Part shown: in pieces, positions 28,471-35,985 of the stretch
Layout: every line of letters starts with the position of its first letter
Numbering within the stretch: the first letter of the stretch is position 1
Assembly (NCBI GenBank): GCA_018402685.1
Contig: JAGYIJ010000002.1
Span: 186,001 to 250,000 of the forward strand
DNA: 64,000 nt
DNA from: Aquiluna sp.
Lineage (GTDB): Bacteria > Actinomycetota > Actinomycetes > Actinomycetales > Microbacteriaceae
Direction: 5' to 3'
Notes under the pieces: generated by a model
Databases searched by the model: none
What the model saw: only the letters and a program-made list of their open reading frames with translations
Told to the model about the DNA's origin: nothing
Made by a program: the position numbers and the translations under genes

Positions 28471-30816
28471 ATGGCCGACAATCAAGAGCGAATCGTTGAT
28501 ATCGATGTCGCTAAGGAAATGCGGGAGTCATTTCTCGAATACAGCTATTCGGTTATCTATTCGAGGGCACTTCCAGACGCCAGGGATGGTCTTAAACCAG
28601 TCCAAAGACGAATCGTTTATCAAATGGGTGAAATGGGGCTGCGCCCCGATCGAGGCCATGTTAAATCGGCTCGGGTTACCGGCGAGGTCATGGGAAAGCT
28701 CCACCCACACGGTGATGGTGCAATCTACGATGCCCTAGTTCGAATGTCGCAATCCTTTAGCCTGCGGGTCCCATTGATTGATGGGCATGGAAACTTCGGG
28801 TCACTTGACGATGGTCCTGCCGCCGCCAGATACACCGAGGCTCGACTCACCAAAGCGGCAACGCTGCTCAATGAATCCTTGGACGAGGATGTGGTGAGTT
28901 TTGAACCCAATTACGACGCTCAGCTATTAGAGCCAGCGGTGCTGCCGGCTGCTTTTCCAAATCTTTTAGTCAATGGCGCCAGTGGCATTGCGGTTGGCAT
29001 GGCCACAAATATGGCCCCTCACAATCTTCGTGAGGTGGTCTCCGCAATCATCGCTTTGATTGCAAACCCTCAGATCACACTTACCGAGCTGATGGAGTTT
29101 ATTCCTGGTCCAGATCTACCATCGGGCGCAGTCGCTCTCGTCGGAGAGGGCCTCAAGGACGCTTATGAGACTGGTCGGGGCAGTTTCCGAATGCGGGCGA
29201 AGATCTCGGTTGAGACGGTGGGTCCAAGGCGCACCGGTCTGGTTGTCACGGAGCTGCCCTACCTTGTTGGACCAGAGCGGGTAATAGACAAGATCAAGGA
29301 TGCAGTTGGAGCAAAGAAGCTCGAGGGTATTCACAATGTGGTGGATCTAACCGACCGAGAAAACGGCCTGCGATTGGTCATCGAACTCAAGTCAGGTTTT
29401 GACCCTAACTCGGTTATAGAAGCGCTCTACCGGCTAACCCCGCTGGAAGAATCCTTTGGAGTGAACAACGTTGCTTTAGTTGAGGGCAGACCGCAACAGC
29501 TTCCTCTGAAAGCGCTACTAGAGGTCTACCTGCTGCATCGAATCGATGTTGTAACTAGAAGATCAAAGAATCGTCTGGATAAGCGCAGGGCGAGACTGCA
29601 CCTTTTGGATGGTTTGCAGATTGCCGTTTTGAACATCGATGAGGTGATCGAGGTGATTCGGACCTCCGACACCGCCGATAACGCTCGTGAGCGGTTGCGA
29701 ACCGTGTTTGATCTAAGCGAATTGCAAGCTGAATACATTCTTGAACTGAGACTTCGCAGGCTGACTCGGTTTTCAATAATCGAATTGGAGCAGGAAGCCG
29801 ATCAATTGCGCTCCGAGATCGCTGATCTTGAGAAATTACTGAGCTCAGAACAACTCATAAGAACTCAGGTTGCCAGAGAGCTCGAACAGGTGGCTGCGGA
29901 ATTCGGCGACGATAGGCGCACGCAGCTCATTGACAGCGAGGGGATCACCGTCTCTCGTAAGGCCATTTCGGTAACAGAGATCGAGGACTCACCAGCCGTG
30001 GTGGTCCTGAGTCCCACTGGAATCGCCTATCGGGTCACCGAGGCCAGCGAGGTTGACCCAGGCGTGTTGGTACCGAGTTCGACCAGGGCTGATGTTGGTT
30101 TCGTTACTGGTTCTGGTCGAGTAATTAGGGTTCATGTGAGCGATCTGCCCACCAAAACCGCAGGGGTTTCTGGTGACATGCCCGATGCCAAGAACTACTT
30201 GGGTCTTGAGAGCGACTCCGTGGTTGGCTTAATCGCCTGGGATTCTTCTCACACCTACGCCCTTGGGACCTCTCACGGAGTCGTGAAGCGCTTCACCGGA
30301 CCGCTGCCAGACAAAGATGAAGTCGAAATCATCTCTTTGAAAGACATGGACGAGGTAATTGGGATTGGCACTAGTGAAGATTCCACCCAGCTGGTCTTCG
30401 TCTCGTCAGAGGCAAACCTGCTGGTTTTCGATGCCGCCAGCGTTCGGCCCCAGGGTTTAGCCGCAGGCGGTATGGCAGGAATGAATCTGGCCGGCAGTAG
30501 GGCGGTTTTCTTTGGGGTGAGCGATGGTAGTGAGAACCTGGTCACAGCAGCCAACAGCTCGCAGGCACTGGGTGCTACAGACCCCGGGTCGATGAAGACA
30601 ACGCCGCTTTCCGCATACCCCAAAAAGGGAAGAGCGACACAGGGTGTCAGGTGTCAGAGATTGCTAAAGTCCGAAGACCAGATCTATTTCGCTGGATTGG
30701 CGGCAAGTGGTGTGGTTTTGGATTTAGACGGAAAGCCAATCAGCAGCCCAGAGCTTGATCCAAGAAGGGATGCTAGCGGCAAGCCCACCTCCAGTTATGT
30801 CGCTGCCTGCTACTAG
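28471..30816 (+). CDS. parC: DNA topoisomerase IV subunit A (ParC-type)
   Basis: Breaks and rejoins DNA with subunit B to decatenate chromosomes. The 781-residue protein has the winged-helix CAP domain with the quinolone-determining region ([17 protein letters not shown]) and the catalytic Tyr in [11 protein letters not shown] (about residue 120), the coiled-coil gate (about residues 370-480) and a C-terminal beta-pinwheel. I call it ParC rather than GyrA from its placement opposite parE in the actinobacterial sepH-parC-parE region and from the poorly conserved pinwheel without a clear GyrA box. A GyrA assignment would need a search to exclude. Confidence 0.88.
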
Positions 30817-32867
30817 GCGTCGATTTTTTCGCGGTCAAAGCTGTCCGCTGAGGAAACAATGAAGTCTCTTCTTGGGGCAACCTCATTACCCATCAAAAGT
30901 TCAAATACGGTGGCTGCCTCTTCGGCGTCTTCGGCGGTGATTCTTCGCAGCATTCGGTTTTGCGGCATCATCGTGGTCTCGGCTAGCTGATCGGCGTCCA
31001 TCTCCCCCAGGCCCTTGTAGCGCTGAATGGGTTGCTGATAGCTCGTTCCATTTTTCTCAAGAGCTGAAAGCAACTCGTTTAGTTCCTGTTGTGAGTAGGT
31101 GTAGCGCGCTTCTTTTACTCGACCCTTTTGGATCATTACTCGGTGAAGTGGTGGAACCGCTGCGTATACCCGACCCGCCTCAACAAGTGGTCGCATGTAA
31201 CGGAAGAAAAGGGTCAAGAGCAAGGTCCTAATGTGCGCACCATCGACATCGGCGTCGCTCATCAGAATGATCTTTTCGTAGCGCACCTGATCTAGTTCAA
31301 AGGTTCGTCCCGAACCCGCACCCAAGACCTGGATGATGGCAGCGCACTCAGCGTTTGAGAGCATGTCCGACAGGGAAGCCTTTTGAACATTCAGAATCTT
31401 TCCTCTGATAGGCAACAGCGCCTGGAAGGAGGAGTCTCTTGCGAGCTTGGCGGTTCCCAGGGCGCTGTCTCCCTCAACGATAAACAGCTCCGAACCCTTG
31501 GTTGCATCCGCCCTGCAATCGACCAACTTGCTGGGAAGCGATGAGGATTCCAGGGCGTTCTTGCGGCGCTGGGTGTCCTTCAATGACCTAGCAGAGATTC
31601 TCGCTTTAGCCTCTGAGACGACCTTGTCCAAGAGGTTCTCCACCTCTTGCTTAGTCCCACGTTGCTTGCCCAGCAGGTATTCATCAAACCACTTCGCAAC
31701 CACACCGGAGACCAGAGATTTGATGGCGGGAGTTCCCAGCACCTCCTTGGTTTGACCTTCAAACTGTGGCTCTGGGAAACTCACAGAAACCACTGCCGTG
31801 AGACCAGTCATGATGTCGTCGCGTTCAATCTTTAGACCGGTTGCCTTGAGTTTTCTGGCTGATTGCTCGATAGCGGCGCGGAAGGCCTTGATAAGCCCCT
31901 GCTCAAATCCCGCTAGGTGGGTGCCACCTTTTGGGGTGGCAATGATGTTAACAAAGCTTCTAACCTCGGTATCGAAAGCGGTTCCCCAGCGAAGCGCTAT
32001 GTCGATCTTGCAATCCCGCTCGACCTCCCTTGAGACCATCGCACCTTGATTCTCATCCAGCACAGGAACGGTCTCTTTGAAGTGGACATCGCTTTGGATT
32101 CGGTGAATCTGTGTGGTCGGGTCGTCCTTGCTGAGGTGTTCAACATACTCGGCTATCCCGCCCTGGAACTGATAGCTCTCAACGTTCTTATCCTGATCGG
32201 TGAGGGTGAGAAGTAGTCCGGGAACCAAAAATGCTGTCTGGCGAAGCCTCGATGCGAGATCAGCTGGAGAGAACACCGCGCTCGGTTCAAAGATTTGGGG
32301 GTCTGGCCAGTAATGCACTCGGGTTCCGGTGACGCCCTTAGCCACTTTGCCAATGGTTCTGAGCTCACTTTGGTCGGTGAAGGGATTGAAATTAGCATCC
32401 GGACCTGGACCATCGAACACGCCGGGTTCGCCGCGCTTGAAGCTCATGGCATGGGTCTTGCCGTTTCTATCAACCTCAACATCCAGTCTCGCACTGAGTG
32501 CATTCACCACGGAGGCGCCGACACCGTGCAAACCACCAGAGGCCCCGTAAGAGCCACCACCAAACTTGCCGCCGGCATGCAGCTTCGTGAAAACGACCTC
32601 AACGCCGCTCAGTCCGGTTCTAGGTTCTGCATCAACCGGCACGCCGCGACCGTCATCGGATATCTTCAAAGAGCCATCCGAAAACGCCTCCACGGCAATT
32701 GTTTTTCCGTGTCCGGCCAAAGCTTCATCAACAGAGTTATCAATAATTTCCCAGAGGCAGTGCATGAGTCCGCGAGCGTCTGTAGAGCCTATGTACATGC
32801 CTGGGCGCTTGCGCACGGCCTCTAGGCCCTCTAGCACGGAAAGATGTCTGGCGTTGTAATCGGTCAC
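30813..32867 (-). CDS. parE: DNA topoisomerase IV subunit B (ParE-type)
   Basis: ATPase subunit of the type-II topoisomerase. The 684-residue protein has the GHKL ATP-binding motifs ([43 protein letters not shown]), the transducer domain, and the TOPRIM motifs [10 protein letters not shown] and [13 protein letters not shown]. It is convergent with parC, the two stops sharing CTAG. The GTG start is 6 bases after TAGTGT (32874-32879) with no Shine-Dalgarno, so it is likely leaderless. Confidence 0.9.
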
Positions 32868-32879: not shown

Positions 32880-32968
32880 ACTAGCAACCGAGGTTTATCG
32901 CACCTGCCACTTCGCAGTTAGCGAAACAGGCCCTAATGCGGAATTAGTTTGGCGTGTTCGTGCTTGAA

Positions 32969-32974
32969 TACTCT
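32969..32974 (+). promoter_or_regulatory. Possible -10 box upstream of the DUF7455 gene
   Basis: TACTCT lies 4 bases before the ATG at 32979. The spacing is shorter than for the other leaderless genes here; the true start codon could be slightly further in. Confidence 0.3.
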
Positions 32975-32978
32975 CACA

Positions 32979-33176
32979 ATGGAAGACATCAGAGAAGTAG
33001 AGAAGCTGGTCGCAACAGACCGATGCGACGTGTGTGGAGCCCAGGCTTACATCAGGGTTCAAATGGATAGCGGCGAACTTCTGTTCTGCGCTCACCACGG
33101 CAACGCCAACAAGACCAAGCTTCAGCCTCTGGTTATCAACTGGCACGATCAGTCTGAAGAGCTCAACAAAAAATAG
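32979..33176 (+). CDS. DUF7455-type small zinc-binding protein
   Basis: A 65-residue actinobacterial protein with CDVCGAQAY and LLFCAHHG, giving a likely CxxC...CxxH zinc site. Function is unknown; homologues sit beside parE or the sigma factor gene in many actinobacteria. I start at ATG 32979 (MEDIREVEKL); an in-frame TTG at 32964 is possible. It ends one base before the gatD-like gene on the opposite strand. Confidence 0.8.
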   Translation: MEDIREVEKLVATDRCDVCGAQAYIRVQMDSGELLFCAHHGNANKTKLQPLVINWHDQSEELNKK

Positions 33177-33707
33177 CTAGAGCTTCTCAATCCAGCTCCG
33201 CTGGTGATCGCTGACACTAACTTGCAACCCCAGACCCTGAGCCATGTGCTGTAGCAGTGAAATGTTCTTGGCTAAGACTGGTCCAAACAACGTGGTTGCA
33301 ACGAAGTGCCCTGAGAGAAACAGATCCGAATCAATCACCTCGCTGTTTCTGTAACCCTTCACCGCAATGTCGTTAGACCTCACCTCTCTAAACTCACTGA
33401 CCCGATCGCCGTAGCTCAGTATTGGCAGGCCCGAGAGTTTGGGGGCGAAGAACTCATAAGCACTTCCAACGATCAGAGTTGGTAGACCGGCTTGAAGGCG
33501 CTTTTCTAGAGCAGGGACAAGGGAATCCAGTTCATCGCCAAACTCCCTGATCGCCGCTCTTGAACCATCACCAAACAGCGCGAACTCGGCATCGTCAATC
33601 GCCACTGTTGAAATTTCCTGATCCGTAAAGTGAGCAAGCGCTTCGAGGTTGCCCTGGTCGCCGTTGTTGTTGAAGTATTCCGGCCTGAAACTAAATACCC
33701 GGATCAT
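33177..33707 (-). CDS. GatD-like glutamine amidotransferase fold protein, catalytic residues missing
   Basis: By position and sequence this is the partner of MurT, homologous to GatD, the glutaminase of the lipid II isoglutaminyl synthase. The 176-residue product keeps the N-terminal GDxGN motif (residues 16-20), LPTLIVGSAYEF where the nucleophile loop (ICGGYQF in Staphylococcus aureus GatD) should be, and LFGPVLAKN where LHGPILPKN should be. The nucleophile Cys aligns with Gly81 and the catalytic His with Phe141; the whole protein contains no cysteine. So it cannot be a standard Cys-dependent glutaminase. It overlaps murT by 4 bases (ATGA), indicating that the complex is still made. See findings for a possible role. 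Confidence 0.75.
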   Translation of the reverse strand: MIRVFSFRPEYFNNNGDQGNLEALAHFTDQEISTVAIDDAEFALFGDGSRAAIREFGDELDSLVPALEKRLQAGLPTLIVGSAYEFFAPKLSGLPILSYGDRVSEFREVRSNDIAVKGYRNSEVIDSDLFLSGHFVATTLFGPVLAKNISLLQHMAQGLGLQVSVSDHQRSWIEKL

Positions 33708-34912
33708 TTCGCCACCTGGGTGTGTCTTCTGAATCGTCGCATGGCATCTGCAGAGAACAAAATGGTTGGGTTCTCACCGTCAAGCTTTGAAAATGCCCTG
33801 GCGGCCTCCGAAATCTCAGGCAAGACTTCCCCAACCTCGACCCCCGCAACACTGAGCCTCAGCGCCAGCTCATAAGCATTGAATCCGGCGACCACGTCAA
33901 CCTTTTTCAGCGCACTGAAATCAACCGTCCAGAGCCAGCTCGGATCGTGGATGTCGCTGCCCGCCATCAGCATCAGTGGAGCGACATCCTTTGGAAGTTC
34001 ATCGACATTGAGCTGAAAGCTCGTGGGGTTCTGGACCAGCCTGAGGTTCACGGATCTTCCCATGATCTGCGCTTGCTCATTGCGTGCAAAGACTCCCTGG
34101 GTGTTGCTGAATGTAGCTGCAACCTTTGTCGCATCGAGCTCAATTAGCGAACTGGCTGCCGCGAGAGCTGCTGCGTAGTTCAGTGCCAACTCTGGGCTCT
34201 GCACCGGGGTCTTGAAACGTTCTGATCCCATGGCGATTTGAAAGCCGGCATCTGCGATGACCTGAACCGAGCGCACGATGTCAGGGTGCTGGCCAAAGTT
34301 CAGGGCGTATTTAGGAGCCACATCGCTACTTCTTAGATCATCGGAAAGACCAAAACCAATTGCACGCTGATGACTAGCAGCGAACTGGGTGAGATTCTTA
34401 TCGTCGGAGTTGCAAACGATTTGTTCGGAGGCACTCGCGATTGCTGCAAGCTTTTCGGTCACCAGCTCTGGATCGACGAACCTGTCCAGTTGATCTGAGA
34501 GCACGTTGGTGAAAATGGCCAAGTTAATGTTGAGCTCTTCTGCCAACATCGCACCATGACCCTCGTCCCACTCGAGAACAGCTATGTCGTGGTTGATTTT
34601 CCCGGCGAGGTTTGCCTCTTTCAATACCGCTGAAAACAATCCCTGCTTGATGTTGGCGGTCGAGGGATTTGTGAAGACCTTGAGAGAATGCGCTTCGAGA
34701 AGCTTCACCAGCAAAGAGGTGGTGGAGGATTTTCCTGCAGACCCAGAAATAACCACCAGCCCCTTAGGGCAACTAGCTATCGCTTTTATAAGAAGTTGAG
34801 GATCGATTTTGCTTGCGATGAGTCCTGGAAATGCGGAGCCGCCTCCGCGTCTAAAGATTCGAATGAATAAGCGAAGCAGTTTGCCAATCGACACTGCCAG
34901 CAGCGTGCGCAT
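33704..34912 (-). CDS. murT: MurT-like Mur ligase (lipid II isoglutaminyl synthase homologue), divergent
   Basis: A 402-residue Mur-ligase family protein. In MurT/GatD the ligase activates the alpha-carboxyl of D-Glu in lipid II and adds ammonia. Visible features: N-terminal hydrophobic/basic segment, FPGLIASKIDP, ATP loop GSAGKSSTT (58-65; GTNGKTTT in classical MurT), EWDEGHG, LSDQLDRF (138-145; FRDQLDR usually), NSDD, and a C-terminal MurT domain with DPSWLWTVDF. The four-cysteine zinc ribbon expected near residues 195-225 is absent. The start ATG overlaps the sigA stop (TAATG). Divergence matches that of the GatD partner. Confidence 0.8.
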   Translation of the reverse strand: MRTLLAVSIGKLLRLFIRIFRRGGGSAFPGLIASKIDPQLLIKAIASCPKGLVVISGSAGKSSTTSLLVKLLEAHSLKVFTNPSTANIKQGLFSAVLKEANLAGKINHDIAVLEWDEGHGAMLAEELNINLAIFTNVLSDQLDRFVDPELVTEKLAAIASASEQIVCNSDDKNLTQFAASHQRAIGFGLSDDLRSSDVAPKYALNFGQHPDIVRSVQVIADAGFQIAMGSERFKTPVQSPELALNYAAALAAASSLIELDATKVAATFSNTQGVFARNEQAQIMGRSVNLRLVQNPTSFQLNVDELPKDVAPLMLMAGSDIHDPSWLWTVDFSALKKVDVVAGFNAYELALRLSVAGVEVGEVLPEISEAARAFSKLDGENPTILFSADAMRRFRRHTQVAK

Positions 34913-35985
34913 TAGTTGTCCAGGTAGTCCCTGAGCAGCTGAGAGCGCGAAGGGTGCCTGAGCTTGGACATGGTCTTTGATTCAATCTGCCTGATGCGCT
35001 CTCTGGTGACGCCGAACTTCTCGCCTATTTGATCCAGTGTCATCTGAACACCGTCTCCCAATCCAAAACGTGATTTGATCACGCCTGCCTCGCGGGGGTG
35101 CAAAGATTCGAGAACTCGCTCCAGCTCTTGCTGCAGCATTGTGAAGCCGACAGCATCCGCCGGAACTACCGCTTCGGTGTCTTCAATCAGGTCGCCAAAT
35201 TCGCTGTCGCCGTCTTCTCCCAGTGGAGTCGAAAGCGAGATTGGTTCGCGGCCATACTTCTGGACCTCGACAACCTTCTCCGGAGTCATGTCTAGCTCTG
35301 CTGCCAATTCCTCTGGTGTTGGCTCACGGCCCAGATCCTGCAGCAGCTGGCGCTGAACTCTGGCAAGTTTGTTAATCACTTCAACCATGTGAACTGGAAT
35401 ACGAATGGTTCTAGCCTGGTCAGCCATGGCTCGGGTGATGGCTTGACGAATCCACCAGGTGGCATAGGTGGAGAACTTATAACCCTTGGTGTAGTCAAAT
35501 TTTTCAACCGCGCGAATCAGACCCAGGTTTCCCTCTTGAATCAGATCTAGAAACTGCATGCCCCTGCCGGTGTAACGCTTCGCAAGAGAAACAACGAGGC
35601 GAAGGTTAGCCTCCAAGAGGTGACTCTTGGCGCGCTGGCCATCTTTGACTACCCAGTTCAGGTCTCTTTTGTCTGCTGCGGAGAGTTTCTTGTCCGAGCC
35701 AAGTTTCTCCTCGGCAAAAAGGCCAGCCTCAATGCGCTTGGCCAGCTCAACCTCGAGCTCGGCGTTTAGCAGGGCGACCTTACCAATTTGCTTGAGGTAG
35801 TCCTTGACTGGATCGGCTGTTGCACCGGTAATGGTCAGGTTTTGAACCGGAATGTCGTCTTCGTCATCTTTGATTACAAGAGCATCGCTTGGCAAGAGAA
35901 TTGCCCCGGTTACTGGATCAGTCTCGTCTGACTCGGCAACCGTACCATCGGCGCTCAGATCGACTGCCTCCTGCGCCTCTTTCAC
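34912..35985 (-). CDS. sigA: Principal RNA polymerase sigma factor SigA/RpoD (N-terminus probably extends to 36108)
   Basis: The housekeeping sigma-70 factor. Region 1.2 ([16 protein letters not shown]), region 2 ([40 protein letters not shown], cited in parts; [14 protein letters not shown]), region 3 and region 4 with the helix-turn-helix ([20 protein letters not shown]) are complete. The first canonical start is GTG 35985, but it has no ribosome site. Upstream, the same frame is open for another 41 codons that read as a typical actinobacterial sigma N-terminus (Lys/Ala-rich, then acidic). The best-placed start for that extension is ATC at 36108, five bases after AAGGAAG. murT is translationally coupled downstream. 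Confidence 0.93.

Follow-up and report, generated by a model that had tools for sequence, protein, structure and literature searches.

We propose that two adjoining genes of Aquiluna sp. (Microbacteriaceae), located between sigA and a parE-like topoisomerase gene, probably encode a peptidoglycan ligase that works without a glutaminase. Its MurT-like subunit would couple the alpha-carboxyl of D-Glu to a free amino acid, for which a D-diamino acid is the likeliest candidate, and its GatD-like subunit would have a structural role. Canonical MurT/GatD catalyzes the glutamine-dependent amidation of this carboxyl in lipid II. In B-type peptidoglycan, a long-used chemotaxonomic marker that is also found in lineages such as Erysipelothrix and other Firmicutes, the alpha-carboxyl of D-Glu carries the cross-link bridge. 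We infer the substrate, the donor and the role of the GatD subunit from comparing this locus with its counterparts in other genomes. With less confidence, we rather favour a broader reading, in which the sigA-parE interval (the slot) is a swappable B-type island where at least two MurT/GatD lineages that lost their glutaminase separately and a divergent protein of the CofE type take one another's place as the ligase for the D-Glu cross-link, partly fed by a split heterodimeric diamino-acid racemase.

If this is true, the ligases of the slot would be the first enzymes to which the B-type cross-link can be assigned, a step for which candidate genes can now be named, and the pair is apparently a case of an amidotransferase becoming an amino-acid ligase by loss of its glutaminase function and retention of the subunit. 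Among the open-access matches listed, the titles and the beginnings of the abstracts assigned no enzyme to the B-type cross-link, and none tied MurT/GatD or CofE to cross-links of this type.

The gene pair between sigA and parE

Both genes lie on the minus strand of the window (the whole stretch of DNA that was analysed, 64,000 nucleotides). The gatD-like gene (33177..33707) encodes a GatD homologue of 176 aa without the glutaminase residues, and the murT-like gene (33704..34912) a Mur-type ligase of 402 aa, which belongs to class A of the slot proteins. The two genes overlap by ATGA. The upstream border of the slot is sigA (34912..35985, minus strand), the stop codon of which overlaps the murT start by one base (TAATG), and the downstream border is the parE-like topoisomerase gene (30813..32867, minus strand). 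A small reading frame with CDVCGAQAYIRVQMDSGELLFCAHHG is present on the opposite strand between gatD and parE (32937-33173, plus strand).

The preliminary description of this DNA had reported a GatD-like protein devoid of cysteine, with Gly and Phe at the places of the catalytic Cys and His. Indeed, there is no Cys in the 176 aa, and alignment to canonical GatD places Gly81 (TLIVGSAYEFF; codon 33465-33467, minus strand) at the nucleophile position and Phe141 (context ATTLFGPVLAKN; codon 33285-33287, minus strand) at the position of the catalytic His. The MurT-like protein contains two Cys and no C..C...C..C ribbon, and its P-loop (codons 34718-34744, minus strand) reads GSAGKSSTT, in line with the earlier reading.

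The Pfam domains Mur_ligase_M and MurT_C were both found above cut-off in the window MurT. The window GatD matched no Pfam family, and one of its relatives (L043) exceeded the GATase_3 cut-off. The corresponding NCBIfam models gave 114.7 bits for MurT and a weak match for GatD (E 8.5e-5, 22.5 bits), so that both proteins missed the equivalog cut-offs (MurT 800 bits, GatD 450 bits with a Staphylococcus model); a profile built from the family picked up the window GatD at 135 bits. Among the MurT chains of the PDB, the window MurT matched 7q8e_A (E 8e-24) and 6fqb_A (E 1e-23). A search of the window genome (1.48 Mb, rated 93% complete) with PF08353 and the slot-A profile returned a single MurT, and thus no second, intact murT-gatD, the search for which had been recommended. 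In the MurT tree, the window protein groups with Candidatus Aquiluna sp. IMCC13023 (L232) and genomes of the same genus, with Rhodoluna as the sister group.

Loss of the glutaminase residues is family-wide

PF08353 is present in 275 of 398 Microbacteriaceae genomes. The glutaminase-less state of slot GatD is a family-wide feature: among the loci listed, none of the 89 distinct readable genes between sigA and parE encodes the nucleophile Cys (G in 64, A in 11, H in 8, S in 3, N in 2 and Q in 1), and the catalytic His is retained in 35 of them. These 89 genes are the readable ones from 107 loci with slot MurT. Since no exception was found among them, the absence of Cys is not due to chance.

Off the slot, 41 of 44 GatD proteins of the family have both Cys and His. 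They come from 46 GatD on stretches without sigA, which comprise these 41 (at least two of them second looks at the same genomes), two slot genes whose sigA was cut off (L156 and L198) and three dead ones. Dead pairs outside the slot were seen at L035, L036 and L104; the first of these (L035:2563-4634, genome G005) has N and L at the Cys and His positions and lies on a stretch of 43% GC that is possibly a contaminant from another lineage. As a control, we searched 40 of 83 genomes from other families of the order: 17 of the 40 matched PF08353 and 23 gave no match, and the proteins found had Cys in 17/17 GatD and His in 16/16 readable cases. The S. pneumoniae structure paper describes the operon as universal in Actinobacteria.

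Without a glutaminase, the attacking amine has to come from ammonia or an amino acid in free form. Ammonia would leave the pair an amidotransferase that makes D-isoglutamine, with GatD needed for assembly only. This is compatible with the retained ligase residues and with the activity of S. aureus MurT/GatD, which can work with ammonia at pH 8.5, GatD being required even then (PMC6085368). Nevertheless, we regard it as unlikely: a canonical Cys/His pair coexists with a dead pair in five genomes, with the dead pair in the slot in four of them (G149, G395, G050 and G060) and on a contig other than that of sigA in the fifth (G225). The occupants of the slot and the wall chemistry, described below, speak against it as well.

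Both genes evolve under purifying selection in relatives, as had been supposed from their intact frames. In 11 pairs of relatives, several of them with dS >1, dN/dS was 0.09-0.32 for gatD and 0.08-0.25 for murT; dS was saturated in two further pairs, which contain the window sequence. A regulatory or structural pseudo-enzyme, or a pair in decay, is thus very improbable, even though the fast evolution of the window GatD, which is 41-49% identical to its counterparts in nine relatives from the genus group, would fit it: dN/dS is well below 1 in relatives, the frames are intact, the ATP-site residues are invariant, and one clade has been kept across many genera.

Slot MurT retains the ligase residues

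We compared 52 slot-A, 29 canonical and 9 slot-B MurT sequences. K61, N82, N87, E114, D116, E117, N136, D140, R144 and N168 (window numbering) are identical in the three groups, and D171 is kept in at least 96% of the sequences. According to the structure papers, activity is lost on changes at T60, E108 and N267 of S. aureus MurT and at Asn85 and Asp112/Glu113 of S. pneumoniae MurT. By alignment, the counterparts of Asn85 and Asp112/Glu113 are N87 and D116/E117, and that of S. aureus E108 is E114. At the position of S. aureus Thr60, 92% of slot A has Ser, which is a conservative replacement, and the counterpart of N267 was not located. The P-loop changes noticed in the window are common to the whole of class A (T58S in 94%, T62S in 92%). 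Because this ligase anatomy is kept, slot MurT should still phosphorylate a carboxyl.

The class-specific changes of slot A lie beside Asp323. This residue (codon 33944-33946, minus strand) is by alignment the equivalent of S. aureus MurT D349, the third member of the catalytic triad, which contacts GatD-His189. It is present in 52/52 slot-A sequences, and in slot B the position holds N (8/9) or M (1/9). Just before it, 52/52 slot-A proteins have a three-residue deletion. Slot A has further acquired an S-x-Q-x-N-L-D stretch, with Ser298 in 51/52, Gln300 in 48/52, Asn302 in 51/52 and Asp304 in 46/52; the 26 canonical sequences reaching there mostly have G, R, G/A/S and A at these four positions. 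On the other side of the interface, GatD retains the G-P-x-L-x-x-N-P motif, the prolines of which touch MurT in S. aureus.

The zinc ribbon is missing from class A and kept in class B. Its absence from the window MurT, as initially described, stands, but it is not special to dead pairs: the canonical family members L002-L031 have no ribbon either, and we rejected the idea that losing it indicates repurposing.

Ligases replace one another in the slot

Among 185 distinct loci listed, the slot contains MurT in 106, a CofE-type protein in 47, both in one and neither in 31 cases; 23 of these 31 are closed by parE. The census started from 192 loci, of which seven identical sigA ends were merged, and left out 13 second looks at the same genomes as well as the entire block L113-L141, which holds four family loci (MurT at L113, L114 and L116; CofE at L123). 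Named genomes were sampled (at least 120 loci) with a sigA signature pattern that matches 77 of 78 family loci and 0 of 25 outside. "Neither" means that none of the genes sought was there: L083 and L091 hold a transporter, and L095 and L097 a Mur ligase. For two of the eight open loci with neither ligase (L182 and L208), titles and low sigA scores suggest an origin from other families. Neither a slot ligase nor MurT was found in four family genomes (G017, G045, G047 and G057).

Several loci deserve separate mention. The Mur ligase in the slot of L095 (3340-4899) and L097 (1720-3405), two small genomes of one genus, has three domains and is MurE-like as judged by eye. Microbacteriaceae-type sigA loci occur in records titled Stenotrophomonas maltophilia P13 and Planococcus sp. 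APC 4015 (L143 and L259), which are probably contaminated or mislabelled. The murT gene of Curtobacterium flaccumfaciens CP121450 (L241; G508:C1:2351655-2352852) is split over two frames, perhaps by an assembly error.

The slot CofE is a divergent member of PF01996, the F420-gamma-glutamyl-ligase family, and occupies the sigA-parE interval in many genomes that have no MurT. Proteins of the CofE family join an amino acid to a carboxyl. Often, slot CofE is accompanied by an ATP-grasp protein (PF14397), by an alanine-racemase-like pair or by a class-III aminotransferase of the EctB type. The slot-A profile found no MurT at E 1e-20 in 11/11 CofE-slot genomes searched. Conversely, the MurT-slot genomes searched for CofE gave strong F420-type matches or none, except for the genus of L036 and L100, which gave a weak match of the slot type. 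In this genus, CofE, a zinc-ribbon MurT and a dead GatD adjoin each other, off the slot at L036 and in the slot at L100, where the neighbouring genes are sigA, CofE, MurT, GatD and the racemase pair; its MurT forms a separate lineage.

In the MurT tree (a quick search with 88 rows, L009 not used, and long branches flagged for L035, L036 and others), slot-A, slot-B and canonical MurT form clades with SH-aLRT values of 98, 97 and 79, respectively. As the two slot clades stand apart from the canonical one, the simplest account is that genes sharing the slot lost the glutaminase on two or more occasions. Mapped on one rough FastTree tree of SigA and ParE, in which many rows lack ParE and L149 was dropped, the state of the slot, empty included, needs 30 changes; 14 changes of the MurT class A label and eight of the CofE label are required even if just the well-supported branches are counted. 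Judged from these sequences, the ligases replace one another in place within the slot.

The suggestion that the pair is a repurposed Mur-type ligase with GatD as a non-glutaminase subunit gains support from the retained ligase residues, the swap with CofE and, sometimes, the racemases. The alternation with CofE, and the racemases that part of the slots carry, are at odds with an amidotransferase that uses ammonia. An action of the slot genes on another peptide or polymer than peptidoglycan is a distant alternative. The CofE and ATP-grasp families do have other substrates elsewhere, and the slot chemistry is what we infer for these proteins; against this stand the descent from MurT, the racemases, the three-domain Mur ligase in the slot of two small genomes, and the absence of slot genes within 1500 bases downstream of sigA at 25/25 out-of-family loci.

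Racemase, ATP-grasp and donor-pathway genes

The companions of the two ligases differ. Among the loci listed, a racemase pair is present in 14 of 66 closed MurT slots versus 12 of 25 closed CofE slots, and an ATP-grasp gene in 4 of 66 versus 22 of 25. The racemase pair is missing from 52 of the 66 closed MurT slots, including that of the window.

In 39 slots, two alanine-racemase genes adjoin in a way that resembles a split enzyme (e.g. L051, L072, L074, L075, L174 and L186). In a simple motif scan, which left many motifs unread, the long gene had the PLP-lysine motif (KADAYGHG type) in 24/39 and the VSYG.T. tyrosine motif in 0/39 cases, and the short gene had the tyrosine motif in 21/39 and R replacing the lysine in 15/39. 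We take the lysine and the tyrosine of these motifs to be the catalytic residues. The two products may form a heterodimeric diamino-acid racemase.

The window genome has one full-length Alr-type match, and the number of alanine racemases turned out to be uninformative about its donor. EctB, which serves in the synthesis of 2,4-diaminobutyrate (Dab), was above cut-off in just 4 of 31 genomes, so it is not a useful marker of Dab walls; it was not above cut-off in the window genome or in those of the Rhodoluna-titled L161 and L222, so the pathway does not confirm the donor.

In a different order of events, the slot pair would first add glycine, or some residue other than a D-diamino acid, and another enzyme, for instance the ATP-grasp protein, would then bring in the diamino acid. 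Glycine occurs in the B bridges of Microbacterium, and some slots have the ATP-grasp gene. However, 62 of the 66 closed MurT slots are without it, and the wall peptides reported for Rhodoluna lacicola (Mur-Gly, Gly-D-Glu and D-Ala-D-Dab; PMC4156110) put Gly at position 1 and join D-Dab to D-Ala. This order of events is therefore improbable. Glycine, which had been named as a possible donor, is less supported than a D-diamino acid, to which the racemase partners and the published bridges with D-Dab and D-Orn point.

Slot ligases and B-type peptidoglycan

Rhodoluna lacicola has B2beta peptidoglycan with Dab and homoserine (PMC4156110), and both Rhodoluna-titled loci (L161 and L222) carry the MurT/GatD pair. 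The wall of Herbiconiux is described as B2gamma and contains D- and L-Dab; the strain of L179, which has a MurT slot, likewise contained Dab (PMC10011130). Subtercola and Agreia are both B2gamma, the former with Dab and the latter with L-Dab and D-Orn (PMC5945732); of the loci of these genera, L184 and L234 have the pair and L261 has MurT, where the stretch ends. Agromyces aureus is B2gamma (PMC5217419), and the Agromyces loci L198, L238 and L257 carry the pair. Among the loci listed, Microbacterium-titled ones have CofE in 31/35 and MurT in 4/35 cases, and Salinibacterium-titled ones CofE in 3/5. The walls contain D-Orn, L-Lys or Dab in Microbacterium (PMC10757982), and Lys and Orn in the type B wall of Salinibacterium (PMC7033078).

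Hence, slot MurT matches B-type peptidoglycan at the level of the genus in Rhodoluna, Herbiconiux, Subtercola, Agreia and Agromyces, but not in Leucobacter, which is B-type without slot MurT. The peptidoglycan of Leucobacter chironomi DSM 19883 is of the B type and contains Dab and GABA (PMC4511665), and Leucobacter taxa are tabulated as type B (PMC4804768). All four closed Leucobacter slots (L150, L192, L228 and L233) are empty, and each of the five Leucobacter genomes searched, that of L. chironomi DSM 19883 included, has one canonical Cys/His pair, which belongs to a different clade and lies at a different locus from the slot pairs. B-type peptidoglycan can thus be made without a slot ligase, which counts against the proposed role of the pair. 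We also rejected the rule that a kept Cys/His pair means a wall other than B-type. The link to B-type walls drawn earlier gains support from the match by genus; the expectation that B-type relatives lose the Cys/His pair fails in part, in Leucobacter.

Proposed reaction and comparison with known ligases

Slot MurT would begin as MurT does, using ATP to activate D-Glu, which occupies position 2 of the wall precursor, at its alpha-carboxyl. A free amino acid, rather than the ammonia derived from GatD, would then attack with its amine, and the resulting branch would later become the B-type cross-link. GatD would remain at the interface, where it would give the donor site its shape or cap it. Ammonia, proposed earlier as an alternative donor, is disfavoured: the swap with CofE, the racemase partners and a wall chemistry in which the bridge already occupies the alpha-carboxyl speak for an amino acid. 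D-Dab, D-Orn or D-Lys are the favoured candidates because the bridges contain D-configured diamino acids, and by analogy with the sister genus Rhodoluna the donor in the window organism would be D-2,4-diaminobutyrate.

Compared with characterized MurT/GatD (PDB 6gs2/7q8e and 6fqb), the slot pair has the same two subunits, gene order, MurT domains and ligase residues, and its GatD shares the G-P-x-L-x-x-N-P interface motif. It differs in a GatD that has no Cys nucleophile (0/89) and has His in 35/89, and in a class A MurT with the three-residue deletion, the new S-x-Q-x-N-L-D stretch and no zinc ribbon. The reaction proposed for slot MurT, in which ATP drives the attachment of a free amino acid to a stem-peptide carboxyl, would be chemically the same as that of MurC-MurF; unlike these, slot MurT has a GatD partner and no N-terminal UDP-binding domain, the lack of which is a mark of MurT. 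The alternative occupant of the slot belongs to the same family as CofE (F420-0:gamma-glutamyl ligase, PF01996) and is unrelated to MurT. In whole genomes, it matches this family with E values of about 1e-10 to 1e-12, in contrast to 1e-45 or better for the F420-type copies, which are found in some of the same genomes.
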